IMG/VR virus record: IMGVR_UViG_3300007623_000015
Span: 1 to 33,828 of that record
Source: a virus
Length of the DNA: 33,828 nt
Direction: 5' to 3' (one strand)
In this document: positions 2,956 through 32,652 of the stretch, one piece after another
Position numbering within the stretch: the first letter of the stretch is position 1
Layout of the letters: each line of letters opens with the position of its first letter
Program-made: the position numbers and the translations under genes
The notes under the pieces: model-generated
Database searches by the model: none
What the model saw: the letters and a program-made list of their open reading frames with translations, nothing else
What the model was told of the DNA's origin: nothing

Positions 2956-2957
2956 AT

Positions 2958-3131: not shown

Positions 3132-3170
3132 AGTGTTTCCTTTTATTTTTATTTTATAATATCACAATTA

Positions 3171-3395
3171 TTATTGCTCTGATTTATTGATAAGTTCTCT
3201 TAAAACTTTACCTAAACCTTGTACTATATCATTTTCATTTTCATCTTTTGGAAAATTAAATGTATAATCTGTTCCATCAAAAACTAATTCACCTGCCATT
3301 TCACTATCAGCAAGAAATTTAGCATTAAAACCTGGAACTCCTTTTGTGTCGTTAATCACAATTGTGATATCACCAAAATTTCTATATCTTTGCAT
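3171..3395 (-). CDS. Hypothetical late protein, 74 aa
   Basis: Small soluble protein with no recognised motif. The start is supported by AAAGGACAG upstream and a late promoter at 3419-3426, whose TATAAATA abuts the 3' CCA of tRNA-Tyr. The sequence has beta-rich character in the first 55 residues and a C-terminal helix. The late promoter suggests virion or late-phase expression. Function unknown. Confidence 0.7.
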   Translation of the reverse strand: MQRYRNFGDITIVINDTKGVPGFNAKFLADSEMAGELVFDGTDYTFNFPKDENENDIVQGLGKVLRELINKSEQ

Positions 3396-3418
3396 TTTAC
3401 TGTCCTTTTGTTTAACAG

Positions 3419-3426
3419 TATTTATA
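3419..3426 (-). promoter_or_regulatory. Late promoter TATAAATA
   Basis: Exact core 24 bases upstream of the 74-aa protein start. It begins at the base after the tRNA-Tyr CCA. Confidence 0.65.
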
Positions 3427-3512
3427 TGGTGGAGCAGGCTGGACTTGAACCAGCAATGCTAAAAAGCGGCGGATTTACAATCCGCTGGGGTTACCAATTT
3501 TCCTACTACTCC
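3427..3512 (-). tRNA. tRNA-Tyr(GTA)
   Basis: Class II tRNA. Acceptor GGAGTAG/CTGCTCC, anticodon stem GCGGA/TCCGC with loop TTGTAAA (GTA), variable arm, T arm GCTGG/CCAGC, CCA encoded. Confidence 0.95.
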
Positions 3513-3518
3513 ATTAAA

Positions 3519-3551
3519 TGGTGGTCTCGAGCAGACTTGAACTGCTGGCAC
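3519..3551 (-). pseudogene. tRNA 3' fragment beside a homing endonuclease
   Basis: T arm AGCAG/CTGCT with loop TTCAAGT, then CGAGACC, A and CCA: a perfect tRNA 3' end. There is no anticodon or D arm. The sequence runs directly into the stop codon of the endonuclease at 3552, and no matching 5' half (GGTCTCG) is seen upstream. It looks like a tRNA destroyed by the endonuclease insertion. Confidence 0.6.
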
Positions 3552-4217
3552 CTACTCATACATTGATATAAAATCTTTCCCATATTTGTCTTCTACATAG
3601 GCTAAATACAATTTTATATCATCTTTGTAAATGACTTTAATTGGTTTATCAAACTGTTTAAGTTTTTGTTCCCATTGTTCTGTCATATAACCTTTTATCT
3701 CTACATACTCATCATTGACTATAAAGTCTGGTATATAGTATCTTTTTTCATTGTTAAAAATATACTTAAATTTTTCTGTATTCCTCTCAAAATCTATGTT
3801 ATGTTCTATATTATATATAACATAAGCAAGTTCCCAAGAACTATCACAGTAATATCCTTTGTATGTACCACTCTTGCCTCTACCAGAACCTTTTCTATAA
3901 CCACCTTGATTTGGGTTATTTTTCATTTGTTCTAATGTTTTTTTAGAGTGAGTTTTACCCTTAAATGAACCTTCTCTGCCAGATAATAATTCAGAATGTT
4001 TTTTTATTCTTTCATCATCTTCTTTAGTTAGCCCTTTATTCCAAGCTTTTCTATTACCTTTTTTGTATCCGTCATTGTTACTAGTAAAATCTTTACCTTC
4101 TCCATGACTTCTCCAAATATGCGTACATATACCTTTTTTTGTATATTCTTTATCACAATGTGGGCATATATACTTCCCAGTGTTCTTATTTAACCAATTT
4201 TCATCTAACTTTATCAT
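3552..4217 (-). CDS. Homing endonuclease, PD-(D/E)XK type with zinc finger
   Basis: 221 aa. The N terminus has a C2H2-like finger (CPHC near residue 18, then an H and SHG near 33-40). The middle has a NUMOD3-like stretch (KAWNKGLTKEDDERIKKHSELL). The C terminus (about 120-200) has SSWELAYVI, YYIPDF and YVEIKGY, the pattern of Hef/Vsr-like PD-(D/E)XK homing nucleases: PDF supplies the acid, E-x-K the rest of the site. It is inserted among tRNA genes and abuts a tRNA 3' fragment. A late promoter lies at 4236-4243. Expected role: cutting an allele lacking the element to spread it. Confidence 0.85.
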   Translation of the reverse strand: MIKLDENWLNKNTGKYICPHCDKEYTKKGICTHIWRSHGEGKDFTSNNDGYKKGNRKAWNKGLTKEDDERIKKHSELLSGREGSFKGKTHSKKTLEQMKNNPNQGGYRKGSGRGKSGTYKGYYCDSSWELAYVIYNIEHNIDFERNTEKFKYIFNNEKRYYIPDFIVNDEYVEIKGYMTEQWEQKLKQFDKPIKVIYKDDIKLYLAYVEDKYGKDFISMYE

Positions 4218-4235
4218 ATAAACAACTTTTATTAG

Positions 4236-4243
4236 TATTTATA
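4236..4243 (-). promoter_or_regulatory. Late promoter TATAAATA
   Basis: Exact core 19 bases before the homing endonuclease start at 4217. A TGATTTA/TAAATCA hairpin (4271-4290) lies between it and tRNA-Phe. Confidence 0.55.
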
Positions 4244-4305
4244 TTAGTTGAATTTGGTAGAACACAAGACTGATTTAATAATATAAATCACTGTTGTATT
4301 CTTTT

Positions 4306-4381
4306 TGGTGTCGGATGCAAGATTCGAACTTGCCCCTTTAGATTTTCAGTCTAACGATGTCACCTTATCATCCAATCCAAC
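4306..4381 (-). tRNA. tRNA-Phe(GAA)
   Basis: Acceptor GTTGGAT/ATCCGAC, D stem GATG/CATC, anticodon stem TTAGA/TCTAA with loop CTGAAAA (GAA), T arm GCAAG/CTTGC with TTCGAAT, CCA encoded. Confidence 0.93.
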
Positions 4382-4389
4382 CAAATTAA

Positions 4390-4465
4390 TGGTCTCAACT
4401 CCGAGTAACGCTCTCGGCTCTTTGGATTTTCAGTCCAACGCTTTCACTTGATTAGCTTAGTTGAG
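4390..4465 (-). tRNA. Aberrant tRNA-Phe(GAA)-like gene
   Basis: Acceptor CTCAACT/AGTTGAG is perfect. Anticodon stem TTGGA/TCCAA with loop CTGAAAA gives GAA. T stem CCGAG/CTCGG is perfect but its loop is AGCGTTA, not TTCRANY. The D arm (GCT/AGC) lacks the GG that normally docks with the T loop, so both partners of the elbow contact are missing together. A-CCA encoded. A 12-bp hairpin (4463-4508) occupies the leader and overlaps the mature 5' end by three bases. Confidence 0.55.
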
Positions 4466-4508
4466 ATACGATAGAATCAAACTTTATATTAATGTCCTAT
4501 CGTATCTC
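4463..4508 (-). repeat. 12-bp perfect inverted repeat in a tRNA leader
   Basis: GAGATACGATAG (4463-4474) and CTATCGTATCTC (4497-4508) pair over 12 bp with a 22-base loop, immediately 5' of the aberrant Phe tRNA-like gene. The last three paired bases are also the first bases of its acceptor stem, so the two structures compete. Confidence 0.6.
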
Positions 4509-4562
4509 TATTCTATCAGTTAGAGTTTACAATAGGACAAACTAAATGTACTAAACATTTTA

Positions 4563-5321
4563 TTATCCTTTTCTATATGTTGAAATAATCTTTCTATGAT
4601 TTGAGATACATTTTTTAATTGCTTTTATAAATTTATCTCCATCAAATACAATCTCACTATTGTCCCCATCTAGACCAAGCATAGAAATAATATTTGTCAC
4701 CCTTGTTCCAGAATAGTCTGATGTTAATGTAACAGAACCATCATCATTCCATTTTGCATTGATTGTAGTAGAGTAAATGTCACCAAAATCATGAGTTCTA
4801 CCCTTACCAACAGTTTTTAATGTTGCACTAAATGTATTACTTACAAATCTTTTATAAACTGACAATTCTGCCCCAGCTACTTTTATATCTTTCATTGTAT
4901 CTGTGACTAATTTTTTTGTTAGTCTTGTAGTGCCTCTTTTAACTTTTGGTTTTACTTCTTTTTCCACTTCTATACCAAACATTTTTGGTTGTTTCTTTAT
5001 TTTATCTACCAATTTACTTGTAAATGTATCTATATCATTTTTAAATCTTAACATAGTCGCTTTTGGGTCAATTGGTTGAAATTTAAAATATGTACCTTGT
5101 CTTTTTCCTAAATAAGAAGCATAAAATGTACCTCTGTTAGTTTCTATTGTTATATTCAAATTACTGCTTTCAGTTGAACCTTTAGTTTGGTAAGAACTTG
5201 CTTTAAAAGAATAACCAGTATCTTTACTTAATTTTTTAAAGTATTTAGACGCCCATTTTTCATCAAACTCATTAACATCAAGATGTAGAGTTTTTTCTAA
5301 TATCAATTCTCTGAATGTCAT
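4563..5321 (-). CDS. Hypothetical late protein with capsid-targeting-like leader
   Basis: 252 aa, no recognised domain. The N terminus MTFRELILEKTLHL resembles the T4 internal-protein capsid-targeting leader (MKTYQEFIAEA) and ends in I-L-E, which fits the L/I-x-E rule of the T4 prohead protease. A similar F-R/K-E start occurs on the proteins at 8948, 14339 and 17554. The body alternates basic helices (about 85-135) with beta-rich stretches. RBS GAGGAA and late promoter at 5343-5350. I infer a possible head-packaged protein; the leader similarity is short and needs testing. Confidence 0.7.
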   Translation of the reverse strand: MTFRELILEKTLHLDVNEFDEKWASKYFKKLSKDTGYSFKASSYQTKGSTESSNLNITIETNRGTFYASYLGKRQGTYFKFQPIDPKATMLRFKNDIDTFTSKLVDKIKKQPKMFGIEVEKEVKPKVKRGTTRLTKKLVTDTMKDIKVAGAELSVYKRFVSNTFSATLKTVGKGRTHDFGDIYSTTINAKWNDDGSVTLTSDYSGTRVTNIISMLGLDGDNSEIVFDGDKFIKAIKKCISNHRKIISTYRKG

Positions 5322-5342
5322 TTTATTTCCTCTATTTTAGAG

Positions 5343-5350
5343 TATTTATA
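5343..5350 (-). promoter_or_regulatory. Late promoter TATAAATA
   Basis: Exact core 22 bases before the 252-aa late protein. It touches the end of the 19-bp inverted repeat around tRNA-Asn copy 2. Confidence 0.65.
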
Positions 5351-5360
5351 TAACACTCTG

Positions 5361-5432
5361 CTCAGCAGGTAGGATTCGAACCTACGACAACCTGATTAAC
5401 AGTCAGGGATTCTACCACTGAACTACTGCTGA
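5361..5432 (-). tRNA. tRNA-Asn(GTT), copy 2, on an extended stem
   Basis: Acceptor TCAGCAG/CTGCTGA, anticodon stem CCTGA/TCAGG with loop CTGTTAA (GTT), T arm GTAGG/CCTAC. The acceptor is prolonged outward by leader-trailer pairing into a 19-bp perfect helix (5350-5368 with 5426-5444). No full CCA (GCA). Confidence 0.88.
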
Positions 5433-5455
5433 GCAGAGTGTTATGAGTGTACAAC

Positions 5456-5597
5456 TCAATAAAAACAGATAAAAACGGTTAAGAGTTAAACTCTTTCGAG
5501 CTCGACGGGACTTGAACCCGCAATATTCAAAACCAAAATTTGATGTCCTACCATTAGACTACGATGTAATCTTAACCTACAATCCTGTTTTTATTGA
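5456..5597 (-). repeat. Tandem tRNA-like unit B
   Basis: A tRNA-like core is enclosed by two outer helices: 13 bp (5456-5468 with 5585-5597) and 7 bp (5477-5483 with 5571-5577). Unit C at 5608-5742 is a diverged tandem copy with the same helices but changed, still complementary, arms. Confidence 0.65.
5498..5568 (-). tRNA. tRNA-Gln(TTG)-like core of unit B
   Basis: Anticodon stem TCAAA/TTTGA with loop TTTTGGT (TTG), T arm GCGGG/CCCGT with TTCAAGT. The presumed acceptor TACATCG/CGAGCTC pairs in only four of seven positions and no CCA is encoded. The 5' sequence GATTACATCGTAG is shared with unit C. Outer helices may replace the acceptor stem in the precursor. Confidence 0.45.
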
Positions 5598-5607
5598 AGT
5601 GTACAAC

Positions 5608-5742
5608 TCAATAAAGAAAGATAAATGCGACTAAGATAGTGGACTATGTCCGAAGGATTTGAACCTTTACTTTTTCTTAGAAGGAAAATGCTTTACCAAT
5701 AAGCTACGATGTAATCTTAGTCTGTAATGCTTTCTTTATTGA
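5608..5742 (-). repeat. Tandem tRNA-like unit C
   Basis: Outer helices of 13 bp (5608-5620 with 5730-5742) and 9 bp (5629-5637 with 5714-5722) enclose a tRNA-like core. Compared with unit B, both arms differ while pairing is kept (AAAAACAG/CTGTTTTT versus AAAGAAAG/CTTTCTTT). Confidence 0.65.
5645..5713 (-). tRNA. tRNA-Arg(TCT)-like core of unit C
   Basis: Anticodon stem TTTTC/GAAAA with loop CTTCTAA (TCT), T loop TTCAAAT. Acceptor TACATCG/GGACATA pairs in about four of seven positions, no CCA. D arm GCTT/AAGC is canonical. Confidence 0.45.
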
Positions 5743-5759
5743 ATTGTACTTTTTTAAAA

Positions 5760-5834
5760 TGGAGCTCCCACTCAGAATCGAACTGAGGTCTACTGATTAC
5801 AAGTCAGTTATAATCGCCACTATACTATGGGAGC
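5760..5834 (-). tRNA. tRNA-Thr(TGT)
   Basis: Acceptor GCTCCCA/TGGGAGC, anticodon stem ACTGA/TCAGT with loop CTTGTAA (TGT), T arm CTCAG/CTGAG, CCA encoded. Leader and trailer can extend the stem (TAAAAT/ATTTTA). Confidence 0.93.
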
Positions 5835-5837
5835 ATT

Positions 5838-6365
5838 TTAATAACTTTTACCTTTTTTGTATCTTTCTCGTCTAATATGTCTACCTGAACCTTTATTTTT
5901 TCCTTTATAAGTATCTGTTTGACTGTGACAATTTGGGCATAAAAAAGTTAAATTTTCTTCTTTATTATTAGATGAATTACCATCTATATGTTCTACTTCT
6001 AATGTTATAGGTGAACCATTCCATTCAGAAATACTACACTTAGAACATTTATAACCAATATTTTCTGTCAAGTATCTTCTAATAGATACACCAAGTGAGT
6101 CTATTTCACCTTGTTTCCATTTAGAGACTTTAACCATATATTCATATTCTTTCTGACACTTGTTATCACAGTAAGTTTTGTTGTTACTTATCTGTTTACC
6201 ACAGTGTAGACAATCTTTAGTTTTCTTCTCTCTTAACTTATTGTTATAAGATGCTGAACAACTACTTGAACAAAATTTGTTATACCTTTTAGAATAAGGT
6301 ATAACTGTTTCACAATTTGGACATTTATTAGGAGTTTCATTATACTTTATTTCAGATTTTGTCAT
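5838..6365 (-). CDS. HNH homing endonuclease with zinc ribbons
   Basis: 175 aa. Two N-terminal Cys-rich ribbons: CPNC...FCSSSC (about 15-36) and CLHC...YCDNKC (about 52-70). An HNH core follows: CSKC near 108-111, LEVEHIDGNSSNN near 122-134 (the VEHIDG signature), then CPNCHSQT. Two CxxC pairs around the HNH motif fit a zinc-stabilised HNH fold. Adjacent to tRNA-Thr with a late promoter at 6387-6394. Typical free-standing phage homing endonuclease. Confidence 0.88.
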   Translation of the reverse strand: MTKSEIKYNETPNKCPNCETVIPYSKRYNKFCSSSCSASYNNKLREKKTKDCLHCGKQISNNKTYCDNKCQKEYEYMVKVSKWKQGEIDSLGVSIRRYLTENIGYKCSKCSISEWNGSPITLEVEHIDGNSSNNKEENLTFLCPNCHSQTDTYKGKNKGSGRHIRRERYKKGKSY

Positions 6366-6386
6366 ATCACTACTCGATTTTTGTAA

Positions 6387-6394
6387 TATTTATA
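6387..6394 (-). promoter_or_regulatory. Late promoter TATAAATA
   Basis: Exact core 22 bases upstream of the HNH endonuclease start. Confidence 0.55.
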
Positions 6395-6464
6395 AAAAAT
6401 AAAATTGGTACATATTTCGACTCTTAAAATGTCATTTATATGTGTTTACTTTTTAAGTTGTGTT

Positions 6465-6486
6465 ATTATAACATAACTTTACTTAA
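6465..6486 (-). promoter_or_regulatory. Promoter TTAAGT-N10-TATAAT
   Basis: Exact match, between trailer element b and the HNH endonuclease; it would transcribe that gene and tRNA-Thr. Confidence 0.65.
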
Positions 6487-6496
6487 CTTTTCGATA

Positions 6497-6563
6497 TTTT
6501 TAGTTTCACTATTTCTAGTTACTTACATCTTTCACCTCGTGAAGGTAAAACATCTTGAAAGAC
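6497..6563 (-). repeat. tRNA-trailer RNA element, copy b
   Basis: Directly after the 3' end of tRNA-Glu copy 2. Outer stem TCTTTCA/TGAAAGA, inner ACC/GGT hairpin, third hairpin ACTA-GAAA-TAGT, shared words AGTAA and TGAAACTAAAA. Here a promoter follows instead of an endonuclease remnant. Confidence 0.55.
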
Positions 6564-6635
6564 TGACCCGACGGAGATTCGAACTCCGGTGGACTGGATG
6601 AAAACCAGCAATCCTAACCACTAGATGACCGGGCC
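6564..6635 (-). tRNA. tRNA-Glu(TTC), copy 2
   Basis: Acceptor GGCCCGG/TCGGGTC, anticodon stem GCTGG/CCAGT with loop TTTTCAT (TTC), T loop TTCGAAT. No CCA; trailer element b starts here. Confidence 0.9.
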
Positions 6636-6640
6636 AAAAA

Positions 6641-6818
6641 TTAAAATTTCATTTTACGACCTTTAAGCCAACCTTGAGTTTCATAATCAGGAAATTCATC
6701 TTTTTTTGATTTTTTTACTTACTTTTTCTGTAAGACTATGTATCCACATAGTACCAAATTGACTGTTTTTAGAACCTGATTGTCTCTTTGGTATGTTTTC
6801 TACCTTTAAATTAAACAT
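6641..6818 (-). pseudogene. Homing endonuclease C-terminal remnant
   Basis: One frame encodes QSGSKNSQFGTMWIHS...SKKIKK, the other, after a one-base slip in a run of A, encodes DEFPDY...GWLKGRKMKF and stop. Together they form the conserved GTMWI...GW-KGRKM module at the C terminus of Seg/HNH homing endonucleases. The nuclease domain is missing. It lies between trailer element c and tRNA-Glu copy 2. Confidence 0.65.
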
Positions 6819-6829
6819 AGTTTGTAACT

Positions 6830-6896
6830 TCCTAGTTTCAGACAAATTGTCTTACTTATATCTCACACCACGAAAAGGTGAGTTACATCGTGAGAT
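6830..6896 (-). repeat. tRNA-trailer RNA element, copy c
   Basis: Directly after tRNA-Asp. Outer stem ATCTCAC/GTGAGAT, inner ACC/GGT-type hairpin, third hairpin AGACA/TGTCT, shared words AGTAA and TGAAACTAGGA. A homing-endonuclease remnant follows, as with copy a. Confidence 0.55.
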
Positions 6897-6897
6897 G

Positions 6898-6971
6898 CGA
6901 AGCAGATGGGACTCGAACCCACGACCACCTCCGTGACAGGGAGGGATTCTAACCAACTGAACTACTGCTCC
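6898..6971 (-). tRNA. tRNA-Asp(GTC)
   Basis: Acceptor GGAGCAG/CTGCTTC, anticodon stem CCTCC/GGAGG with loop CTGTCAC (GTC), T loop TTCGAGT, discriminator G. CCA not encoded; trailer element c follows. Confidence 0.92.
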
Positions 6972-7111
6972 ATATTACAATTCTCAATTTTTCTGTCTAG
7001 CAAGTCAACCGGTATACTACTTGCACTAACTTACAGTGTTTTTGATTTATTGTGAACCTTTAACAGAAAACAATCTCACAATGAAACTCTTTTCTATCAA
7101 AGTTATGTGTA

Positions 7112-7133
7112 ATTATAACTAAACTTTACTTAA
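7112..7133 (-). promoter_or_regulatory. Promoter TTAAGT-N10-TATAAT
   Basis: Exact match, upstream of tRNA-Asp. Confidence 0.65.
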
Positions 7134-7275
7134 AAGTCAAGTCTTTTTTATAAAAAGATTAAAAATTTTTAAAATTTCTTATCTTAATATAATATCATCA
7201 TATAAAGTCACCTTACAATGGTCGGATGATACATCTCGACAGTGCATAAACTTTCAACTTTGTTTATGTTTTGTA

Positions 7276-7297
7276 ATTATAACATACAATTACTTAA
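7276..7297 (-). promoter_or_regulatory. Promoter TTAAGT-N10-TATAAT
   Basis: Exact match, immediately after the 3' end of tRNA-Val; second promoter for the tRNA-Asp transcript. Confidence 0.65.
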
Positions 7298-7302
7298 TTT
7301 TT

Positions 7303-7378
7303 TGGTCGGTCTTGTAGGACTCGAACCTACGACTTCCTCCTTGTAAGGGAGACACTCTACCAACTGAGTTAAAGACCG
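7303..7378 (-). tRNA. tRNA-Val(TAC)
   Basis: Acceptor CGGTCTT/AAGACCG, loop CTTACAA (TAC), T arm GTAGG/CCTAC, CCA encoded. Confidence 0.94.
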
Positions 7379-7380
7379 AA

Positions 7381-7455
7381 TGGATGAGGTAATAGGACTC
7401 GAACCTATAATGGCTGGACCAAAACCAGCAGTGTTGCCAATTACACCATACCTCA
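7381..7455 (-). tRNA. tRNA-Gln(TTG), copy 2
   Basis: Acceptor TGAGGTA/TACCTCA, anticodon stem GCTGG/CCAGC with loop TTTTGGT (TTG), discriminator T, CCA encoded. Confidence 0.93.
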
Positions 7456-7465
7456 ATAAATTTTA

Positions 7466-7541
7466 TGGTGGAGAATACGAGATTCGAACTCGTGACCCCT
7501 ACCTTGCAAGGGTAGTGCTCTCCCAACTGAGCTAATTCCCC
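7466..7541 (-). tRNA. tRNA-Ala(TGC)
   Basis: Acceptor GGGGAAT/ATTCTCC keeps the G3-U70 wobble, the Ala identity element. Loop CTTGCAA (TGC), T loop TTCGAAT, CCA encoded. Leader TTTATG can pair with trailer CATAAA. Confidence 0.95.
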
Positions 7542-9225: not shown

Positions 9226-9233
9226 TATTTATA
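9226..9233 (-). promoter_or_regulatory. Late promoter TATAAATA
   Basis: Exact core 21 bases upstream of the 85-aa protein; it overlaps the last codons of queE. Confidence 0.65.
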
Positions 9234-10026
9234 CACCTCTAAGGTCGTCGTACACTCTAATGTGTAGTCTATCACTGTATCTTAAACTATGTTTAACAGC
9301 AAACTCATATACTGCTTTAGCATTACTATCAACTTCTGCAGCAGTTTCACCTTGTGGCATAACATATACTACACCAAATGTAGGTACTTGTGAAAGAAAC
9401 TCAAAAATTTCATTTGATTCTTCTTTAATACTTTTTTTACTTAAAACAAATTTAAAGTAACTACCTTCAGTATACTTTAAGTATTCATTTACAACTTCAG
9501 GTTTCCATCTTTTATGAATTTTTTCTCCACTAGCACTCATTTTTACTGACATTGAAAATGATACTTTTTTGTAAATATCATAAGTTTTAAAGTCAATATA
9601 TTGTGTACCATTTGTTTCAAAAAATACTTGATACCCTCTACTTACAAAGTACTCTACAGCACCTAGCATAACATCATCACTGTGATGTAATAGTGGTTCT
9701 CCACCAGTAAAAATAATAATAGGTAATTCAGCATTACCATTTGAAATTGCATTCATATCAGGTGCAACCTCTAAAATATCATTTACTAAATCCATAGCAT
9801 TATCATAATAAGTCCAAGTGTGTTTAAAGTGTTTAGCATTAACTGCATGAATACTATCACATCCTCTAATAACAGTTTCACCGTCTAATGGAGATACAGC
9901 ACTACACCCAAACCCAGAACAAGTTAAGTTACACCCACCTGTTCTAACAAAAATCGAAGGTCTACCCATTTGAGCACCTTCTCCTTGAATTGCATTTCCA
10001 AAAATTTCATCTATTGGTAACGACAT
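9229..10026 (-). CDS. queE: 7-carboxy-7-deazaguanine synthase QueE
   Basis: 265 aa radical SAM enzyme that contracts carboxytetrahydropterin to 7-carboxy-7-deazaguanine. FGNAIQGEGAQMGRPSIFVRTGGCNLTC is split here as QGEG (14-17) and the cluster motif C32-x3-C36-x4-C41; QueE proteins usually have CX3CX2C or CX14CX2C, so the spacing is unusual. TGGEPLLHH (107-115) is the SAM-binding GGEP. It overlaps the queC end region (RBS AAGGA within the last codons of queC). QueD and FolE, needed for the substrate, are not in the window and may come from the host or elsewhere in the genome. Confidence 0.92.
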   Translation of the reverse strand: MSLPIDEIFGNAIQGEGAQMGRPSIFVRTGGCNLTCSGFGCSAVSPLDGETVIRGCDSIHAVNAKHFKHTWTYYDNAMDLVNDILEVAPDMNAISNGNAELPIIIFTGGEPLLHHSDDVMLGAVEYFVSRGYQVFFETNGTQYIDFKTYDIYKKVSFSMSVKMSASGEKIHKRWKPEVVNEYLKYTEGSYFKFVLSKKSIKEESNEIFEFLSQVPTFGVVYVMPQGETAAEVDSNAKAVYEFAVKHSLRYSDRLHIRVYDDLRGV

Positions 10027-10029
10027 CTT

Positions 10030-10836
10030 TTATCCTTCTATTTCTTTTCTATAATCTATTAGTTGTTGCTCTGACTCAACTTCGAATTTATTCATAATTT
10101 CTTCATTAGTAAACCCTGCCATAATGTAACCATTTATCTTTTCTGTACAAGTGTTACATTTACCAACTAAACCACACTCTTTTCCACTAGGCCTTTCACC
10201 ATTATAACATGACCAAGTAGTTTCTAAAATATCATAACCTAACTGTTCACTTAATTCTTTAGAAATTCTTAACTCATCTTCTTTATAAAGTTCAACAAAT
10301 GGTGTTACAAACTGTACAACATTTTGTCTATTCAATTGTAATACATTGTTTACTGCATCTCTAAAAGCAGTTGATGTGTCCCAATACCCGTATTCGTCAA
10401 CAGCATTTAACCCTTGAAAAATATATGCACAATCGTTACTTTCAGCATAAGCAGCCGTTATAGCAGCAAACTGTAAGTTTCTAAAAGGTACATAAGTGTT
10501 GACTTGTGGGTCACCTGCATTTTCTTCAGCAGTCTTTGGCTTTAATTCTGAATCAGCAATCAAAGCACAATTTTCTTTTGATATTTCTTTTAAGTAATCT
10601 AATTTAATCGTATCAAAAGATATACCAATCTTGTCAACTGTTTTTTTGGCCATATCTAATTCAATAGAATGTCTCTGTCCAAAGTCAAAAGATAATGCCT
10701 TCACTTTATCTTTTCCGTATTTTTGTACTAATATATGTACTAGTACTGTTGAATCTAAACCACCACTTAATGCTAAACAAACATTTTTATCAGTGTCTGG
10801 TAAAGTGTCTAATATTTCTTTTAATTTCATACTCAT
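10030..10836 (-). CDS. queC: 7-cyano-7-deazaguanine synthase QueC
   Basis: 268 aa. ATP-dependent conversion of 7-carboxy-7-deazaguanine to preQ0. PP-loop SGGLDS (24-29), SFDFGQRHSIEL (49-60), YVPFRN (115-120). Four zinc-site cysteines C210, C221, C227 and C230, with a looser spacing (C-x10-C-x5-C-x2-C) than the usual CGxCxxC. AAAGGA lies directly against the first ATG, so translation may start at the third codon (Met3, 10830), which has better spacing. Promoter at 10852-10873. Unlike the Gat-QueC fusions reported in some phages, the amidotransferase here is a separate gene. Confidence 0.94.
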   Translation of the reverse strand: MSMKLKEILDTLPDTDKNVCLALSGGLDSTVLVHILVQKYGKDKVKALSFDFGQRHSIELDMAKKTVDKIGISFDTIKLDYLKEISKENCALIADSELKPKTAEENAGDPQVNTYVPFRNLQFAAITAAYAESNDCAYIFQGLNAVDEYGYWDTSTAFRDAVNNVLQLNRQNVVQFVTPFVELYKEDELRISKELSEQLGYDILETTWSCYNGERPSGKECGLVGKCNTCTEKINGYIMAGFTNEEIMNKFEVESEQQLIDYRKEIEG

Positions 10837-23606: not shown

Positions 23607-24770
23607 TTATGCCTTTTTCATTTTAAATGATTGTCTTTGAGTACTAAAATTATATTCATCTTTATATAAATCTTTATATTTAACAGTTTCTCCGTCAGTG
23701 ACATCATTTACTAAAATACCAATATTATAATTTGTTGCTTCTGCTTCTTGTTGTGCAGTGTTATCTTTATTAATGTCTTTATATGATTCAAACCAATCAA
23801 CTACATCACTTTTAACTGCATCAGGATAAATAGTTTCGCCTGATATTGTCTTAACTCTATTATTTGCATAATATTTAATAAAATTGTCCATTACAGGTAA
23901 TGTTAATGTAGGAATATTTCCAAACGATAATAAGTGTTCACCCCAAGAAACTTCATCTTCTACAACTTCTTTAAATACATTTATTACCATTTCTTTATAC
24001 CATCCAGATTCAAACAGTTCTGAGAATCCTTCACTTGGTTCTTTTTTAAGAATGTTAATAGTACCTGCCATAACAGCAACATGCATATCTTCATCAAAGT
24101 TAATAAGTTTAACTATTCTAGAAATACCTTGAATTTTATTGTTATATGAATTGTTAATAACATATGTTACTAAGAATGAAATATAAAACTTAAGTGATTC
24201 TAGTGCATAAATTCTAACAACTAATTCCAAAACAAGTTTTTTATTTTCAATTGTTGGTTCATTAGTCATTTGTTTTACTTTATTAAAACACTCAACTTCT
24301 TTATTGATTCTATCATGAATCTCTTTTCTATCTTTAAGCGAGTCAAAAACAGCAGTAGCATCAGGAAATACTTCTCTTAAAATATGTGAATAAGAGAATG
24401 AATGTATTAATTCAAAATATGCGTGCGTTTTAAACATCGCTTCAAATTCTGGTGAAGTTGTTATTGTAGCAAGTACTTCATCAATACCTCTGTTATTTCC
24501 ACTATCCATAAGTGTTTGGAATAAAAGTATTTCAGTTTCAATTTCTTGAATAAACTCTGGTAAATCAGGGAACTTAATTCTAGTTGAAACTAGTGATACT
24601 TCTTTTGGATTCCAAAACGCATTTCTCATTTTCTCTTCGATATTAACAGCAAATGAGTATTTTGGTTGGTCATAACGCTGAAAACCTGAATATTCTCCAA
24701 AGAATATTCTTTGTTTGTCTATACCAGGAACTAAGTTCTCAGTACATACAATACTTTTACAGTCTTTCAT
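23607..24770 (-). CDS. nrdB: Ribonucleotide reductase class I beta subunit NrdB
   Basis: 387 aa. Houses the diiron-tyrosyl radical cofactor. Aligning by eye to E. coli R2: FQTLMDS gives the Asp ligand, ELIHSFSYSHI gives Glu, His and the radical Tyr, ALESLKFYISF gives the next Glu, and DEDMHVAV the last Glu and His, so all ligands are kept. The C-terminal tail that docks on NrdA (SFKMKKA) differs from E. coli. Own promoter at 24821-24842, RBS AAGGAAAC. Confidence 0.96.
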   Translation of the reverse strand: MKDCKSIVCTENLVPGIDKQRIFFGEYSGFQRYDQPKYSFAVNIEEKMRNAFWNPKEVSLVSTRIKFPDLPEFIQEIETEILLFQTLMDSGNNRGIDEVLATITTSPEFEAMFKTHAYFELIHSFSYSHILREVFPDATAVFDSLKDRKEIHDRINKEVECFNKVKQMTNEPTIENKKLVLELVVRIYALESLKFYISFLVTYVINNSYNNKIQGISRIVKLINFDEDMHVAVMAGTINILKKEPSEGFSELFESGWYKEMVINVFKEVVEDEVSWGEHLLSFGNIPTLTLPVMDNFIKYYANNRVKTISGETIYPDAVKSDVVDWFESYKDINKDNTAQQEAEATNYNIGILVNDVTDGETVKYKDLYKDEYNFSTQRQSFKMKKA

Positions 24771-24850: not shown

Positions 24851-25282
24851 CTAAATTTGCTTTTTTTTGTTTTTTATATGAGTACTTAATTCTCTTACTG
24901 TGTGTATATAGTTTAGAGGTTTTTCTATGTATGATACAGCTCCATTATTAATACAATGAGTAACAATATCGTAATCAGTTAACTCATCTACTAAAATAAA
25001 CACCATAGCGTCAGTTTTAGTAGTTATATCTTCTATATACTTATCAGTTTCTATAAATGTTTTAGGAATATCAGTCAGTAGAATATCTGGGTTGTATTTG
25101 ATAATTGTATCAATACTAAGATTTCCACTAGAGTATGTTCTTATGTTTAGTTTATGCATAAGTTCTGTAAACTCTTTTATAATTGAATCATTATAACTTA
25201 TAATCATTATAGTATGCTTATTAAGAATTTCTATATTTTTTCTAGTATCAGGCATTATTCTTAATTTCCTTGTATAATTCAT
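24851..25282 (-). CDS. Degenerate response-regulator receiver protein
   Basis: 143 aa, stand-alone receiver fold. HTIMIISYNDSI opens the domain, ILLTDIP carries the presumed phospho-acceptor D71, and SYIEKPL gives K121-P122. The acidic pocket reads Y-N-D instead of D-D, and the Thr/Ser switch residue is V98, so phosphorylation or switching may be altered. Start could be Met10 (25255) with AAGGAA further upstream; the longer reading overlaps the previous gene by 35 bases. No output domain. Last gene of the phosphorelay block. Confidence 0.75.
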   Translation of the reverse strand: MNYTRKLRIMPDTRKNIEILNKHTIMIISYNDSIIKEFTELMHKLNIRTYSSGNLSIDTIIKYNPDILLTDIPKTFIETDKYIEDITTKTDAMVFILVDELTDYDIVTHCINNGAVSYIEKPLNYIHTVRELSTHIKNKKKQI

Positions 25283-25655
25283 ATATACCTAAAATAAGTT
25301 CTATAAAATCTACTGGTTTCTGTATATACATATCAGCACCTGCCATTAAACTAGTAATTTTATACTCCTTTTCTATGAACCTTGATAACACTATAAATTT
25401 AACATTCTCAACAGAACTTATAAATTTAAAAATATCTAATACAGGGTCAACAAGGTCAATTACAATTATATCATAATGGTTACTATTGTTTAGTTTTTCT
25501 GCATCTTTAGTGTTTGTAACAATATCAATTACATTTATACCAATATCACTAAATGTACCCTTTATCAACTTAGACAATTGACAATCCTCTAGTACTAATA
25601 GTATATGGCAATCTTTTACAAAATTTGCTTTTTCTATGATATTGTATGTTTTCAT
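25248..25655 (-). CDS. Single-domain response regulator (receiver)
   Basis: 135 aa, CheY-like. Key residues are present: E23-D24 acidic pocket (LVLEDC), phospho-acceptor D67 (IIVIDLVDP), switch S91 (FIVLS), and K113-P114 (MYIQKP). No DNA-binding or enzymatic output domain. Lies 13 bases after the histidine-kinase stop. Likely target or phosphate carrier of that kinase, or a competitor for a host kinase. Confidence 0.87.
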   Translation of the reverse strand: MKTYNIIEKANFVKDCHILLVLEDCQLSKLIKGTFSDIGINVIDIVTNTKDAEKLNNSNHYDIIVIDLVDPVLDIFKFISSVENVKFIVLSRFIEKEYKITSLMAGADMYIQKPVDFIELILGIYELYKEIKNNA

Positions 25656-25668
25656 TAGACACTCACAT

Positions 25669-27075
25669 TTATCCTAATACTTTTTTTAATAACTCTTTTT
25701 GACTTATAAGAGTATCACTTTCTTTTGCAGGTACAGTTATATCAAAAACTGTTCCTTTTTCACTAGTTTCTTTTAAAAATAAATTTCCGCCATTTTCTAA
25801 AAGCATTTGTTTGTTTAAATATAATCCAATTCCTCTAATTTCATTGTTGCTTTCGTCACTATCAAAATATGATTTAATGTGTAACCATATCTTTTTTAAA
25901 CCTTTTTCATTTTTTATGCTTTTCTTTGAGTTACCATCACAATCTTTTGTACTGTAATAAGGTTGAAATACTTGATTTAAATTTTTCTTCGAAAGTGGTA
26001 ACCCAGTTCTTCTATCTCTTATACCAGTACCATTGTCAATAATGTATATGTGAAGTACACCGTAATGTGGTTTTTTACCTTCAACAAATTTACACTGAAC
26101 TATAATAGTATCACTACCAGCTTCTAAAGAGTTTTTAAGATGATTACTAACAATGTTCATAAGGTCTCCATTACCTAAGTCCCCTGTTAAATTATAGTTG
26201 TTTAATTCGTCACTTAATTCGACTTTAAAATTACTTCTCTTGTATATATTCATGCTATTTGCTGAGTATTTTACAATATTACTTATAGTTTTATTACCGT
26301 TACTGTACTTAATTTGCTTAAAGTTACTCATTCTTTGTAGTACTGTGTCTACTTGGTCTAGTGCATAATACATTTGTGAAAAGTCATTACTAGTACCTTG
26401 ACAACCACCGCAACTATTTGAATCTCTTTTTTTAGTGATACTTTCTAATTCGATTTTTTTGAGTGTACCTCTGATAATTGCTACAGGTGTATTTAATTCA
26501 TGGTGAATGTTTTCTGTGAGAATTCTCATATTTCTTTCTCTAAGAGAACCTTCTGTACCCATTAGCATAAGCATTTGCTTCTTTTTTTCTTTATATTTTG
26601 TCTTAAAGTATATAATAGTAAATAATATAAAAAATAATAAATTTATTATAAAATAGTTAAAAGTTACACCTTGAATTACTCGGTTAGAATAAGTTTCAAT
26701 TATAATACTTTTAGATGGTATATCAAATACTATGTTTAAATCATTAGAAATTTTGTAACTATTAAATTCAATTAAATATTCTCTTTTTGTATTTAATATA
26801 CTATAAGTCTTATTATTATTGTCCCACTTTTCATTTGTATGAATATTATATATTGTTTTGCAATTACTCATTTCACAAATTTGTTTTAGTGGAATATTAT
26901 TGTTTTTACTTATTATATTTTGTACAATCTCTCTATTAGAGTTTACATGATGATTTGCTAAATCATAAAACGACCACATTAAAATGGAGTTTATAATTAT
27001 TCCATATGTAAGTACTTGAAGAGTATAGTCTTTTATAGTTTCTTTACTTAAAAGACTCTTTAAATTTATTGTCAT
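25669..27075 (-). CDS. Membrane sensor histidine kinase
   Basis: 468 aa. TM1 about 17-37, a periplasmic sensor loop of about 100 residues (38-137), TM2 about 138-157. DHp helix with HHELNTP (191-197; phospho-His H192). Catalytic domain: N box IVSNHLKNSLEAG (308-320), G1 DNGTGI (347-352), F box FQPYYSTK (370-377), G2 RGIGLYL (414-420). A CGGC motif (222-225) interrupts the DHp region, possibly for metal or redox sensing. All motifs needed for autophosphorylation are present. Adjacent receiver genes on both sides make it the core of a phage phosphorelay. Confidence 0.92.
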   Translation of the reverse strand: MTINLKSLLSKETIKDYTLQVLTYGIIINSILMWSFYDLANHHVNSNREIVQNIISKNNNIPLKQICEMSNCKTIYNIHTNEKWDNNNKTYSILNTKREYLIEFNSYKISNDLNIVFDIPSKSIIIETYSNRVIQGVTFNYFIINLLFFILFTIIYFKTKYKEKKKQMLMLMGTEGSLRERNMRILTENIHHELNTPVAIIRGTLKKIELESITKKRDSNSCGGCQGTSNDFSQMYYALDQVDTVLQRMSNFKQIKYSNGNKTISNIVKYSANSMNIYKRSNFKVELSDELNNYNLTGDLGNGDLMNIVSNHLKNSLEAGSDTIIVQCKFVEGKKPHYGVLHIYIIDNGTGIRDRRTGLPLSKKNLNQVFQPYYSTKDCDGNSKKSIKNEKGLKKIWLHIKSYFDSDESNNEIRGIGLYLNKQMLLENGGNLFLKETSEKGTVFDITVPAKESDTLISQKELLKKVLG

Positions 27076-27077
27076 AA

Positions 27078-27728
27078 TTAATTACTCTTTTCATTATATT
27101 CTAATATTGCCCTTTCCATTAGTAGAACTCTATCAGAATTTTTTTGAATTATATGTTTATATATGTTCTCTGTTCCTTGATTTGTTTGTACTTCGTAAGT
27201 ATCTTCTATATTAGTATTAAAATGCTCTTCAAATTTTTTAATAAACTGAAATATTTCAGGATTTTTTCGATTTAATGTATGACCAGTAACAAACTTAACA
27301 AGTGAGTCTGGATACTTATCTTTAATCATAATAGCAACATCAACACCATCATATTCAACATTATTAACTACACCACCCAGTGTGATGTCTAGAAATGCAA
27401 CATCAACTTTTAAACCTTCTGATAGAGCTTTTTCTACAATAAACGCTGCATAATCCCCTGTAGCAACGGCAACATTATAGTTACTATATATGTCACAACA
27501 TTCTACTCTTTTTAATTCATCACATAGTAAAGTTGTCATTCCTTTAAAATCGTCCATTAATAATATAGTAGGTACATTTTTATCTCTGTTATCTACTACA
27601 AATTCTATATCAGGAATATCTATTTCTACTATTTCTTGATTAATATCCTCTGGTCTTTTATAATCGAACTCAATTTCTTCTACTTTTTTCTTTTCTTTCT
27701 TTTTAGTAAAAAAGTCAAATAAACCCAT
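27078..27728 (-). CDS. Receiver protein with amphipathic N-terminal anchor
   Basis: 216 aa. Begins MGLFDFFTKKKEKKK, a hydrophobic-then-basic segment that could lie on the membrane. Receiver domain from about 53: ILLMDD (D59-D60 pocket), AFLDITLGG (phospho-acceptor D114), FVTGHT (T148). The usual K-P is not evident, and the segment after D114 has an insertion (GVVNNVEYDG). No DNA-binding domain. Two-base gaps to both neighbours indicate co-expression with the kinase. Confidence 0.82.
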   Translation of the reverse strand: MGLFDFFTKKKEKKKVEEIEFDYKRPEDINQEIVEIDIPDIEFVVDNRDKNVPTILLMDDFKGMTTLLCDELKRVECCDIYSNYNVAVATGDYAAFIVEKALSEGLKVDVAFLDITLGGVVNNVEYDGVDVAIMIKDKYPDSLVKFVTGHTLNRKNPEIFQFIKKFEEHFNTNIEDTYEVQTNQGTENIYKHIIQKNSDRVLLMERAILEYNEKSN

Positions 27729-27730
27729 AA

Positions 27731-28204
27731 TTATTCCCCTTTTATAGATGACTGTGTCTTTTCAATTAGTTTAAAGCCGTCACCTGTGACTTTATTATAT
27801 GCTTCAGAGTTTATACTATATAGTGTAAATAGTAAAACTATAATTCCAGCAATCAAAGTTACACCTTTCATTATATTTTTAAATGTCAAATGTGTTAACA
27901 CCCATTCTTGTACTGTTGCAGGAGTATTTTTTTTATCTCCGTCTGATATAAGTTTATCTATTGTTTTAATTTTAACCCCTATTTCTTTATTCAGTAAGGT
28001 AGTTAATTTCTTTTTATTCATTTTTTGGAGTGTTTTGAATTCTTGATATATAAGCATAAGTAGTTCGTAAGTTGCCAAATCTGACTCTCTTACAAGTATA
28101 AATTTTTCTGTTAAGTCTTGACCTTCATCTTGTGTAGATATATAATCTATCAGTTCTTGTCTAAGGTCTTCTAATTCTTCTTTAATTTTCTTATATTCGT
28201 CCAC
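27731..28204 (-). CDS. Membrane coiled-coil protein, first gene of phosphorelay block
   Basis: 157 aa. N-terminal half is highly charged and helical (EELEDLRQELIDYI...) consistent with a coiled coil. One transmembrane segment near 117-135 (LIAGIIVLLFTLYSI), then a short tail. Only two bases separate its stop from the next gene. It may assemble or tune the kinase at the membrane. No family recognised; membership in the block is inferred from spacing. Confidence 0.7.
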   Translation of the reverse strand: MDEYKKIKEELEDLRQELIDYISTQDEGQDLTEKFILVRESDLATYELLMLIYQEFKTLQKMNKKKLTTLLNKEIGVKIKTIDKLISDGDKKNTPATVQEWVLTHLTFKNIMKGVTLIAGIIVLLFTLYSINSEAYNKVTGDGFKLIEKTQSSIKGE

Positions 28205-28258: not shown

Positions 28259-29629
28259 TTATTTCTTTTTAGTAAATAATCTTTCTGTCCATTCAGTAAT
28301 TCTACCTCTAACTACTTTATCTAGCTTAGTAGCAAACATATTAACTTCTTCGTGACTATCAGATGTTGCTTCTAATAGGACACTTAAACCGTTTGTATGT
28401 TTATTAATCCATTGATTATCAATTTGTGCATTTGACCCAATACCAACAACTTTACATTCATCATCTAACCTTGAAAGAATTGTTTGAACAGTCTTTCTAG
28501 ACATATTTTGAATTTCATCAACAATAACAAATGCGTTTGAAAGAGTTCTACCTCTCATCTCACCTACCCAAGTAGTTTCAATTTGATATTTAGAAGTTAA
28601 CTCTGTAATTTTTGCTTCAATTGCTTCAGGATTCTCTTTACTTTCACTTTTCTTAAAAGATTGTCTAGCAATAAACTCTAGTGTATCATAAAGCGGCATA
28701 TTATAAATTCTAAACTTTTCATCATTACCACTTAAGTAACCAACATCTTCACCTTTGTCTAGTGATTCAATTGAGTTTCTAATATATATGATTTTAGTGT
28801 AATTCCCTAAATCAACATTTCTCATACCTGCTGCAAGTGCAAGTAATGTTTTACCAGAACCTGCTAATGCTTCAATTAAACAAACATTAAAGTTTGGTTG
28901 TAACATTCCAGCCATAGCATATTGTTGTCCTAAGTTTTTAGGTTTAATAAGATTTTTTCTTAACTCACCTTCATCCATTATATGTATTCGTTCATTAACA
29001 ATAATTGCAGGTACATTATGACCAGTTTCTGCTTCAAACATATAACAGTAATTTTCAGGTAAATAATCTGGGTCATACTCTTTAATATCTTTTAAGTTCA
29101 TACCATTTAACTTATTACTATCAACTGGTAAATGTTTGATAAACTCATAAGTTTTATCTTTTTTCTTATAGTCAAGGGCTTCTGTTCTGACACCTTCTGC
29201 TATTGCTCTAGTTCTACACATTACATCAAGTGATAACAATACAGTTTCACTGCCTTCATAATGTTTAGTAGAATATTCACCAACTTTAATAATTTTTCTA
29301 TCGTTAGCAATACTTCTATCAACACCGTCTAAATCATAATCGTTTAATGATATAATGTCAATTCTCATAGAGTCGTTTACTAGTATACACATAATAGTAG
29401 CGTTTTCATCTCTAATTGTATCCACTACTTCTGCATTAGATAACATTCTAGCAAATTCTCTTGCTTGAAAATTTATTTCGTCGAAACCTGTCTTTTTTGT
29501 GTCGATTTCGTCAATAACAGTTTCTGGTAGAACTATTAAGTTACTACCACCTTGTGAGATACCCTCTAAATTGTGAGCATCATTCAAAATAATGTTTGTG
29601 TCTAAAACATAAATTCTATCATATTTCAT
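28259..29629 (-). CDS. phoH: PIN-PhoH fusion ATPase
   Basis: 456 aa. PIN ribonuclease-like domain at 1-130 (VLDTNIIL with D10, ETVIDEID) followed by a PhoH P-loop domain: Walker A AGSGKT (256-261), Walker B VIVDEIQNM (368-376), and an Arg/Lys-rich end. PIN-PhoH proteins are thought to couple RNA cleavage to ATP-driven unwinding; PhoH-like genes are widespread in marine phages. SD AAGGGA eight bases before ATG is complementary to a hairpin loop upstream (29658-29687), so translation may be controlled by a pseudoknot. Confidence 0.92.
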   Translation of the reverse strand: MKYDRIYVLDTNIILNDAHNLEGISQGGSNLIVLPETVIDEIDTKKTGFDEINFQAREFARMLSNAEVVDTIRDENATIMCILVNDSMRIDIISLNDYDLDGVDRSIANDRKIIKVGEYSTKHYEGSETVLLSLDVMCRTRAIAEGVRTEALDYKKKDKTYEFIKHLPVDSNKLNGMNLKDIKEYDPDYLPENYCYMFEAETGHNVPAIIVNERIHIMDEGELRKNLIKPKNLGQQYAMAGMLQPNFNVCLIEALAGSGKTLLALAAGMRNVDLGNYTKIIYIRNSIESLDKGEDVGYLSGNDEKFRIYNMPLYDTLEFIARQSFKKSESKENPEAIEAKITELTSKYQIETTWVGEMRGRTLSNAFVIVDEIQNMSRKTVQTILSRLDDECKVVGIGSNAQIDNQWINKHTNGLSVLLEATSDSHEEVNMFATKLDKVVRGRITEWTERLFTKKK

Positions 29630-30213: not shown

Positions 30214-30660
30214 TTAGTAATCCTTTTGTTGAAGTTTTCTTTTTATATCTTTTTCTTTTTGGTCGTTTCTTTTATCATATAGTTTTTTACCTTTACATAA
30301 GGCAACTTTTAGTTTTACTCTATTATCTGTGTTAAAATATATAACAAGCGGAATAACTGTTAGATGTTGTTCCTTTTCAAGTCTACCCATCCATTTGTTA
30401 AGTTCCTTTCTATTAAGTAACAATTTTCTAGTTCTTGTTTCCTCTATATTTGAAAATCTGTCAGAATTTTCATAACGACTGATATGCGCGTCAAATAACC
30501 ATAATTCTCCTTTCATAAATCTACAAAATGAACCTTTAAGATTACACTTACCATTTCTAAGTGATTTTACTTCTGGTCCTTGTAGTACTATACCTGTTTC
30601 TAATTCTTCAAGAATTTCATAATCGTGATATTCTTTTTTGTTTTTTGATATTGTTTTCAT
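30214..30660 (-). CDS. smpB: SsrA-binding protein SmpB
   Basis: 148 aa, full length for the family. Binds tmRNA and lets it enter stalled ribosomes for trans-translation. Conserved blocks in order: NKKEYHDYEIL (7-17), ETGIVLQGPEVKSLR (21-35), GELWLFDAHISRYE (51-64), TRKLLLNRKEL (77-87), KGKKLYDKRND (124-134) and a lysine-rich tail. Promoter TTAAGT-N10-TACAAT at 30667-30688. No tmRNA gene was found in this window, so it would work with host tmRNA or one elsewhere. A phage-encoded SmpB is unusual. Confidence 0.93.
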   Translation of the reverse strand: MKTISKNKKEYHDYEILEELETGIVLQGPEVKSLRNGKCNLKGSFCRFMKGELWLFDAHISRYENSDRFSNIEETRTRKLLLNRKELNKWMGRLEKEQHLTVIPLVIYFNTDNRVKLKVALCKGKKLYDKRNDQKEKDIKRKLQQKDY

Positions 30661-31636: not shown

Positions 31637-32158
31637 ATGGCAGATGAAAAGCAATTAGACTCATTAAAAATGTTTAGAACATTAGCAAAAAAGAAAGTTA
31701 AATCACTGACAAATACTGATTTTGTATCAGGTAATATGGTGTCTTTCTCATATATAGCTAAAGATAAATCACAAGTATGGGACAAAACTCCACTTATTAT
31801 CTCTTTGTGGAGAACTAAAGGTTACACACTTGGTATGAACTTTCACTGGGTACCTAAAAAAGTTAGATATATTATACTAGATTTTATCTTAAAAAAGAAC
31901 AAAAACAATATAAAAAAAGGTAAACCTTTAGAAATATCTTATAGAGAACTTAAACCTATAATTAGTAAACTAAGGTTAAGGTCTGTAATAAGGTTATATA
32001 TAAACAGTAGAATAAGTAAAAAAGGTATAGTAATACCTCAAGAACATATGAGAAAAGCTATAGATTTACCAGCAGAAAACTTTATTGGTATGAGTGCTGA
32101 AAAAGCATACGCACTTGTAACTAGACAAGCAAGAAAAAAGAATAAAAAAGGTAGATGA
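31637..32158 (+). CDS. T4-like late protein with GMNFHW motif
   Basis: 173 aa. VSFSYIAKDKSQVWDKTPLII (35-55) and YTLGMNFHWVPKKVRYIILDFI (63-84) resemble a conserved T4-type marine-phage protein family (W-D-x-x-P then G-x-N-x-H), function unknown to me. Basic C-terminal half (net positive) ending RQARKKNKKGR. Translationally coupled to the gp4 gene (overlap 32155-32158), so a head or DNA-end role is plausible, in the way T4 genes 2 and 4 are paired; I do not claim homology to gp2. Confidence 0.65.
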   Translation: MADEKQLDSLKMFRTLAKKKVKSLTNTDFVSGNMVSFSYIAKDKSQVWDKTPLIISLWRTKGYTLGMNFHWVPKKVRYIILDFILKKNKNNIKKGKPLEISYRELKPIISKLRLRSVIRLYINSRISKKGIVIPQEHMRKAIDLPAENFIGMSAEKAYALVTRQARKKNKKGR

Positions 32159-32652
32159 TGTCTCAACAAAAATGGCAAAAAAAAGGTAAACCAAAGCAAG
32201 GTTTCTTTGTTCCTACAAATCCTAAAAAAGTTGTCTTGGTTGAGAATGCTCAAAATAATGGTATGATAGTATATAGAAGTTCATGGGAAAGACAATTTAT
32301 GGTATGGTTAGATGTAACTCCAAGTGTTAAAAGATGGGCAAGTGAACCGTTTCCAATACCATACATTAAACCTACAGATTTCAGGGAACACAAATATTAC
32401 ATAGATTTTTATTTTGAAGCAGTAGGGAAAGATGGTAATATAGTAAAGTATATGATAGAGATAAAACCAAAGCATGAAACTGAACCACCAAAGCAACCCA
32501 AAAAGAAAACTGAAAAAAGTATGATGAATTATCAAAAAAGAATTGAAACATACCAAATAAATCAAGCTAAATGGGAAAGTGCTAGGGCATTTGCTAAGGC
32601 AAACAAACTACAGTTTATGATTATAACTGAAGAAGAGTTAGGAATTAACTAA
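32155..32652 (+). CDS. Head completion protein gp4-like
   Basis: 165 aa (T4 gp4 150). IVYRSSWERQFMVWLDVTPSVKRWASEPFPIPY (38-70 region) followed by YYIDFYFE and YMIEIKPKHE matches T4 gp4/gp50-type head-completion protein with a PD-(D/E)XK-like core (E in SSWE, D in YIDF, E-x-K in EIKP). Probably a nuclease-fold protein that finishes packaged heads before tail joining. Extra lysine-rich insertion near 103-125. Its end overlaps the convergent gene at 32638 by 15 bases. Confidence 0.87.
   Translation: MMSQQKWQKKGKPKQGFFVPTNPKKVVLVENAQNNGMIVYRSSWERQFMVWLDVTPSVKRWASEPFPIPYIKPTDFREHKYYIDFYFEAVGKDGNIVKYMIEIKPKHETEPPKQPKKKTEKSMMNYQKRIETYQINQAKWESARAFAKANKLQFMIITEEELGIN

Follow-up and report, generated by a model that had tools for sequence, protein, structure and literature searches.

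A predicted histidine kinase-receiver module conserved among phage contigs

Phages time lysis or lysogeny by means of peptides, host quorum signals and periplasmic antiholins. A linear virus record of 33,828 nucleotides (nt) from IMG/VR (IMGVR_UViG_3300007623_000015, to be referred to at its full length as the window) raises the question of what a phage would do with a sensor histidine kinase and receivers of its own. Five intact open reading frames are set close together on the minus strand of the window, and they encode a coiled-coil protein (CC), a first receiver (rec1), a histidine kinase (HK) and two further receiver-like proteins (rec2 and rec3). The cluster is bounded by the genes for PhoH and NrdB (Table 1). 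A preliminary description of this locus, made from the sequence alone, had read the five genes as a phosphorelay. Our comparisons point to CC, rec1 and HK as the conserved part of the cluster. With modest confidence, we favor the view that they constitute a phage-dedicated, membrane-bound, non-transcriptional two-component system that would sense the envelope and gate an event there.

Table 1. Locations of the features discussed (positions without a prefix are in the window)
Feature	Location	Strand	Description
CC	27731..28204	-	157-residue coiled-coil protein, GTG start; conserved first gene of the module
rec1	27078..27728	-	216-residue receiver (family alignment, AlphaFold, PDB structure matches)
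HK	25669..27075	-	468-residue predicted membrane sensor histidine kinase (Pfam, family alignments, AlphaFold/Foldseek)
rec2	25248..25655	-	135-residue stand-alone receiver, plausible (Response_reg, PDB match, alignment)
rec3	24851..25255	-	pseudo-receiver (Response_reg, alignment, start context)
PhoH	28259-29629		bounds the cluster
nrdB	23607-24770		bounds the cluster
tRNA genes	548-7541	-	26 genes within 7 kb
Leu-like tRNA	2666-2750	-	anticodon loop TTTTAAA
QueC and radical-SAM protein	9229-10836	-	adjacent genes; Fer4_12
SmpB	30214-30660	-	phage-encoded (Pfam 2e-51)
TnsA-like protein	32155-32652	+	small; endonuclease N-terminal domain (9.7e-19)
Stand-alone CheY	L010:7131-7502; L011:6688-7056; loci L151-L160		T4-like phage contigs
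Added small membrane protein	L191:8978-9574		between rec1 and kinase genes
Barrel gene	L173:11760-12116		apparent remnant

The kinase, the first receiver and the coiled-coil protein

By its sequence, HK is a complete HisKA-type sensor kinase. It matches the Pfam domain HATPase_c with an E value of 6.3e-9, above the Pfam cut-off, and HisKA with 0.0025, below the cut-off. The phospho-acceptor His192 of the DHp domain lies within the motif HELNTP, which provides the ExxT arrangement after the histidine. Residues His192, Glu193, Pro197, Asn315, Ser316, Ala319 and Asp347 are present in all 25 kinases of the family (counts of kinases and of rec1 proteins include the window), and the residue equivalent to Thr196 is a threonine in 21 of them. 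The residues of the N, G1, F and G2 boxes (Asn315, Asp347, Gly349/Gly351, Phe370, Gly415/Gly417) are kept in 23-25 of the 25, and a [KR]YSNGN signature after the second DHp helix is a hallmark of these kinases. AlphaFold gives only a weak model (pLDDT 66), the core of which matches WalK, HK853, ZraS and CpxA in Foldseek. The second transmembrane helix is clear by hydropathy, and the first is seen only as helix 11-57 of the AlphaFold model. The predicted periplasmic sensor contains a C67-x4-C72 pair, the two cysteines being kept in 22 and 21 of the 25 kinases, respectively. A CxxC in the DHp hairpin was also considered as a redox site and was rejected, as it is seen in five sequences and is not kept across the full family.

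The match of rec1 to Pfam Response_reg reaches only 0.024, and its β4-α4 region is divergent. However, Asp59, Asp60, Asp114 and Lys196 are found in all 23 rec1 proteins and Thr148 in 22 of them, and the top Protein Data Bank (PDB) matches of its AlphaFold model (pLDDT 82) in Foldseek are receivers, with a best E value of 2e-5. On the basis of this conservation and this structural match, rec1 is assigned as a receiver despite the weak Pfam score, with a full active site (acidic pair, Asp, Thr and Lys) on a predicted receiver fold. Its N terminus is hydrophobic and basic. Across the family, these N termini score as more amphipathic than stretches taken from inside the same proteins (p = 4e-7), a comparison in which surface helices can score high too.

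The poor recognition of rec1 by Pfam would also suit a divergent cREC-type enzyme that acts on cyclic nucleotides and is not a phospho-receiver. Jumbo phages are known to have Rec domains with links to NAD+/ADP-ribose enzymes, but the paper on these cREC domains states that histidine kinases never accompany them (PMC7824862), whereas rec1 stands beside a kinase in 22 loci. Moreover, the most frequent neighbor families include no NAD+/ADP-ribose enzyme family, and Foldseek groups rec1 with ordinary receivers. We consider an enzyme of this type very improbable here.

CC has one predicted transmembrane helix near its C terminus (about residues 111-135), which would make it tail-anchored. Of the 24 related phage loci, 20 have a homolog, with 29-34% identity to the nearest, and neither Pfam nor the PDB contains a convincing relative.

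Several elements of the preliminary description agree with these results. The gaps between the genes, from CC to rec3, are 2, 2, 13 and -35 nt, as expected from its tightly packed cluster. The complete kinase, predicted to lie in the membrane and with His192 and its N, G1, F and G2 boxes, and the membrane coiled-coil protein are both upheld. The receiver that it had described with an amphipathic N terminus is indeed a receiver by our analysis, and the amphipathic character holds across the family but not for the window copy alone (see below). The domain search that it had suggested for all five proteins gives clear results for HATPase_c in HK and Response_reg in rec2, and falls below the cut-off or fails to convince for the others.

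Occurrence of the module in viral contigs

The kinase family was reached by searching phage contigs that carry CheY for the Pfam domain HATPase_c, and then by stepwise profile scans. The first relative is a 167 kb phage, in which the kinase (40% identity), rec1 (44%) and CC (29%) have the same order as in the window. Altogether the family occurs in 24 further IMG/VR contigs of up to 252 kb, a number that is a lower bound because the scans rest on short motifs. Identities among the kinases go down to 17% and never exceed 77% for any pair.

Iterated hidden Markov models (HMMs) place rec1 next to the kinase in 22 of the 24 loci. They also detect CC in 20 loci, and small secreted proteins and barrel proteins in 14 and 12, respectively. 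Some of the missing genes are due to contig ends (for example in L200 and L201). The order is CC-rec1-kinase-secreted protein-barrel, with a spacing usually within 20 nt and often with overlaps. HMMs built from the other phages, with the window left out, recover the kinase (1e-113), rec1 (1e-51) and CC (3.8e-22) of the window, and their homology is therefore far beyond chance. The identity matrices of kinase and rec1 are correlated (r = 0.85, Mantel p <= 0.0005), which shows co-inheritance of the two genes and is not proof of binding, since vertical inheritance alone can yield such a correlation. CC, rec1 and HK are, on this evidence, a conserved phage module.

The secreted protein and the barrel are not found in the window by HMMs built from the other phages. 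By this comparison the window is a variant of the module, with rec2 and rec3 replacing these two proteins. The secreted proteins have an N terminus of Lys and then hydrophobic residues and have an S.GW.R motif in common; no convincing relative of them is seen in Pfam or the PDB. The C-terminal residue of the barrel is Phe or Tyr in all 12 cases. DUF3373 of Pfam matches 2 of 11 barrels (best 5.1e-10), and the family profile matches the '50 kDa outer membrane protein' of PDB entry 10aw (8.6e-10). The profile and the aromatic C terminus identify it as an Omp50/DUF3373-like outer-membrane barrel. One relative (L191) has an added small membrane protein, possibly a duplicated part of the sensor. In another (L173) the barrel gene is apparently a remnant, while the kinase, rec1, CC and the secreted protein are intact.

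The preliminary description knew of no well-described phage phosphorelay of this kind, and our searches agree. A tblastn search of 50,697 phage records detected no family member with the kinases of the window, L189 and L188, the rec1 of L189 and the barrel of L172 as queries, and no earlier description of a phage kinase-receiver module was found in the open papers searched. In cellular genomes, rec1 gave only short generic receiver matches, both in 397 genomes of a Campylobacterota draw (around Sulfurimonas) and in 399 genomes of a Pseudomonadota draw (around a gammaproteobacterium). Single-sequence scans with the kinase and rec1 of the window over viral and cellular genome contig collections returned no relative. 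A cellular ancestor of the module may exist, as the cellular search covered sampled genomes and not the full collection. Several candidates were rejected. Topoisomerases account for the HATPase matches in L062, Campylobacter phage F379 and the Vibrio Va1-like phage SRILMA, and the matches to a YSNGNK DNA pattern in cellular genomes are not kinases. A query with E. coli PhoR gave 205 matches, and among the matches listed most are apparent host contigs filed as phage, together with unannotated faecal contigs.

The relatives also bear on the origin of the cluster. An assembly chimera, or host cargo with no function, would fit its slightly low overall GC content (25-28%, compared to about 30%). 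However, the third-codon GC of the cluster is the same as in the adjacent phage genes. PhoH on one side has 49% identity to that of the Vibrio Va1-like phage and 46% to that of Campylobacter Firehammervirus, and NrdB on the other has 57% identity to Va1-like NrdB. The same module, with invariant catalytic residues, is present in 24 other viral contigs. Functionless host cargo is hardly credible, and so is a chimera, which the preliminary description had named as a concern. The phage relatives of PhoH and NrdB, together with an encoded Gp23-like protein, identify the window as part of a T4-like phage, and its relatives suggest that the host group is probably Campylobacterota.

Additional receivers and the proposed function

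The two remaining proteins differ in quality. The sequence of rec2 makes it a plausible receiver: it matches Response_reg (2.1e-9) and the PDB receiver 6ont (4e-13), and the Asp, Ser and Lys positions are kept, while the acidic pair is ambiguous, being ED or LE depending on the register. For rec3, the likelier start is at position 25255, which is residue 10 of the first call (24851-25282), because this ATG is preceded by a Shine-Dalgarno-like AAGGAA. The later start also cuts the overlap with rec2 from 35 nt to a few bases. The Response_reg match of rec3 (8.8e-5) is below the cut-off. The Asp and Lys are retained in the alignment, but the acidic pair and the Thr/Ser are gone, and rec3 is for this reason classed, by sequence, as a degenerate pseudo-receiver.

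Domain searches found no effector domain in rec1, rec2 or rec3, neither DNA-binding, as had been noted before, nor of another kind. In the same searches none of the five proteins showed an HPt domain or the architecture of a hybrid kinase. With no HPt domain, the arrangement would be a two-component pathway and not a strict phosphorelay, and the latter term is given up. Likewise, the three receivers are not one conserved unit. The family comparison places only rec1 in the module, and rec2 and rec3 are an addition specific to the window. As a result, the gene order of the preliminary description recurs in other viral contigs for CC-rec1-HK and not for the last two genes, and of its two further receivers rec2 stands as plausible and rec3 does not. 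The location directly upstream of nrdBA, correct for the window, is not kept among the relatives.

In a different view, the target of the phage proteins is the two-component or chemotaxis signaling of the host, which they would rewire. The kinase would phosphorylate host regulators or drain them by a phosphatase activity, and the stand-alone receivers would act as decoys or CheY mimics. The size of rec2 is that of CheY, and among nearby phage sequences it matches phage CheY proteins only, while rec3 resembles a pseudo-receiver that only binds. In addition, stand-alone CheY genes occur in phage contigs that PhoH places near the window, and ten viral contigs have such a gene. The CheY of L010 has the CheY homolog 3gwg as its best PDB match (6.5e-41), which we take to be that of Helicobacter pylori, and its nearest match among cellular genomes is Sulfurimonas CheY, placing it with the Campylobacterota. 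Some of these genes are close to PhoH, or to a cluster of holin and M15 endolysin genes, and phage control of host motility is a possible role for them. On the other hand, the kinase has its own conserved, co-inherited receiver in 22 of 24 relatives, which argues for a dedicated pair, and rec2 and rec3 are outside the conserved module. Host rewiring appears unlikely to us, though still a serious contender.

For the dedicated system that we favor, the parts of the module point to the envelope and none to transcription: a predicted transmembrane kinase, a tail-anchored CC, barrels and secreted proteins. We therefore propose envelope sensing with a membrane output through CC. The extracytoplasmic domain of the kinase would sense a periplasmic cue, and the kinase would autophosphorylate on His192 and hand the phosphate to Asp114 of rec1. 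The N terminus of rec1 would keep this receiver at the inner membrane. As rec1 is without an effector domain, its output would be through protein-protein contacts, most simply with CC, the product of the adjacent upstream gene. The circuit may reach outward in many relatives through the secreted protein and the outer-membrane barrel. The window has rec2 and the degenerate rec3 in their place, which would probably serve as a phosphate sink or a binding modulator. The likeliest use would be to read the state of the envelope during infection and to gate the timing of lysis, its inhibition or the response to superinfection.

Periplasmic sensing and lysis timing, both raised in the preliminary description as possibilities, gain indirect support from the parts of the module and from the lysis genes that a few relatives have close to it. 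The neighboring genes are suggestive of lysis control, but not decisive. An M15-type endolysin is encoded in the window (phrog_465, 4.7e-34), with only PhoH between it and CC. In two relatives (L194 and L195) CC follows directly on a GH108 endolysin and a holin with three transmembrane helices, and in two others (L185 and L193) an M15 endolysin is just upstream of the module. Small membrane proteins and a lipoprotein in L183 and L201 resemble holin-spanin genes by eye, without Pfam support.

Several observations weigh against the proposed envelope circuit. Lysis genes are nearby in just 4 firm cases among the 24, and in the rest the module adjoins structural or replication genes; its neighbors across the relatives are phage genes for head, tail assembly, clamp loader, DNA polymerase and helicase. 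The position of the module differs among phages, and genome position therefore does not fix its function. The sensor domain of HK has no recognized fold. Finally, the N terminus of rec1 in the window fails the helical-moment test when taken alone (p = 0.76).

A broader version of the same idea is that a widespread family of large phages builds a trans-envelope complex (barrel, periplasmic protein, kinase, membrane receiver and CC) that reads outside or superinfection cues through His-Asp phosphotransfer and gates lysis or exclusion directly, without transcription. We regard this version as possible, but on the doubtful side. The module could instead be an auxiliary sensor of the physiology of the infected cell, for example of redox state or of nutrients that enter by way of a phage porin, and lysis would then not be its concern. 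The near-invariant cysteine pair of the sensor, the resemblance of the barrel to a solved outer-membrane protein, and the location among structural and replication genes in many phages are consistent with such a sensor. However, a metabolic regulator usually needs a transcriptional output domain, which is lacking here, and the cysteines may form a structural disulfide. We rate such an auxiliary sensor as improbable.

Genome setting and comparison with known systems

The window has other features of its own. Its tRNA genes include a Leu-like tRNA whose anticodon we read as UUA, so that its codon would be the stop UAA; TAA nonetheless ends 22 of 27 genes checked in the window. SmpB is encoded, and no tmRNA was found in the window by ARAGORN. 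The adjacent QueC and radical-SAM genes suggest 7-deazaguanine modification of DNA or tRNA. The gene for the TnsA-like protein is kept near PhoH in relatives.

If the envelope-sensing proposal is true, virulent phages carry real-time phosphosignaling of the envelope state, and superinfection sensing by phages other than the T-even group becomes directly testable. The [KR]YSNGN kinases are a marker for a group of uncultured phages that probably infect Campylobacterota.

The module is similar to bacterial HisKA systems (PhoR/WalK/HK853-type) in its kinase architecture, the H, N, G1, F and G2 boxes, the ExxT motif and the receiver active site, and also in having adjacent, often overlapping kinase and receiver genes. 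It differs from them in the effector-less receiver, the tail-anchored CC, the frequent secreted protein and outer-membrane barrel, the kinase motif, and its occurrence only in viral contigs of the set searched. A phage-borne histidine kinase is also found in the Clostridioides difficile phage phiCDHM1, which is reported to have host-derived agr genes with an AgrC kinase and no associated response regulator in the phage genome (PMC3901668). In comparison, the module holds a complete kinase-receiver pair of a phage-specific family. The cREC proteins share a Rec-like fold in a phage protein with rec1, which differs in its kinase neighbor. T4 lysis inhibition (RI, RIII and holin T) depends on periplasmic and membrane proteins of the phage, among them an antiholin that is believed to detect superinfection from the periplasm and to set the time of lysis (PMC8385771). 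This is a functional analogy only, with no homology claimed, and no phosphosignaling is described for the T4 system. The barrels of the relatives have the profile of Omp50/DUF3373 proteins, but they are phage-encoded, shorter and located in a signaling operon. The components are ordinary two-component parts of a known kind, and it is their assembly that differs, a phage-specific kinase and receiver with a tail-anchored CC and, commonly, an outer-membrane barrel.

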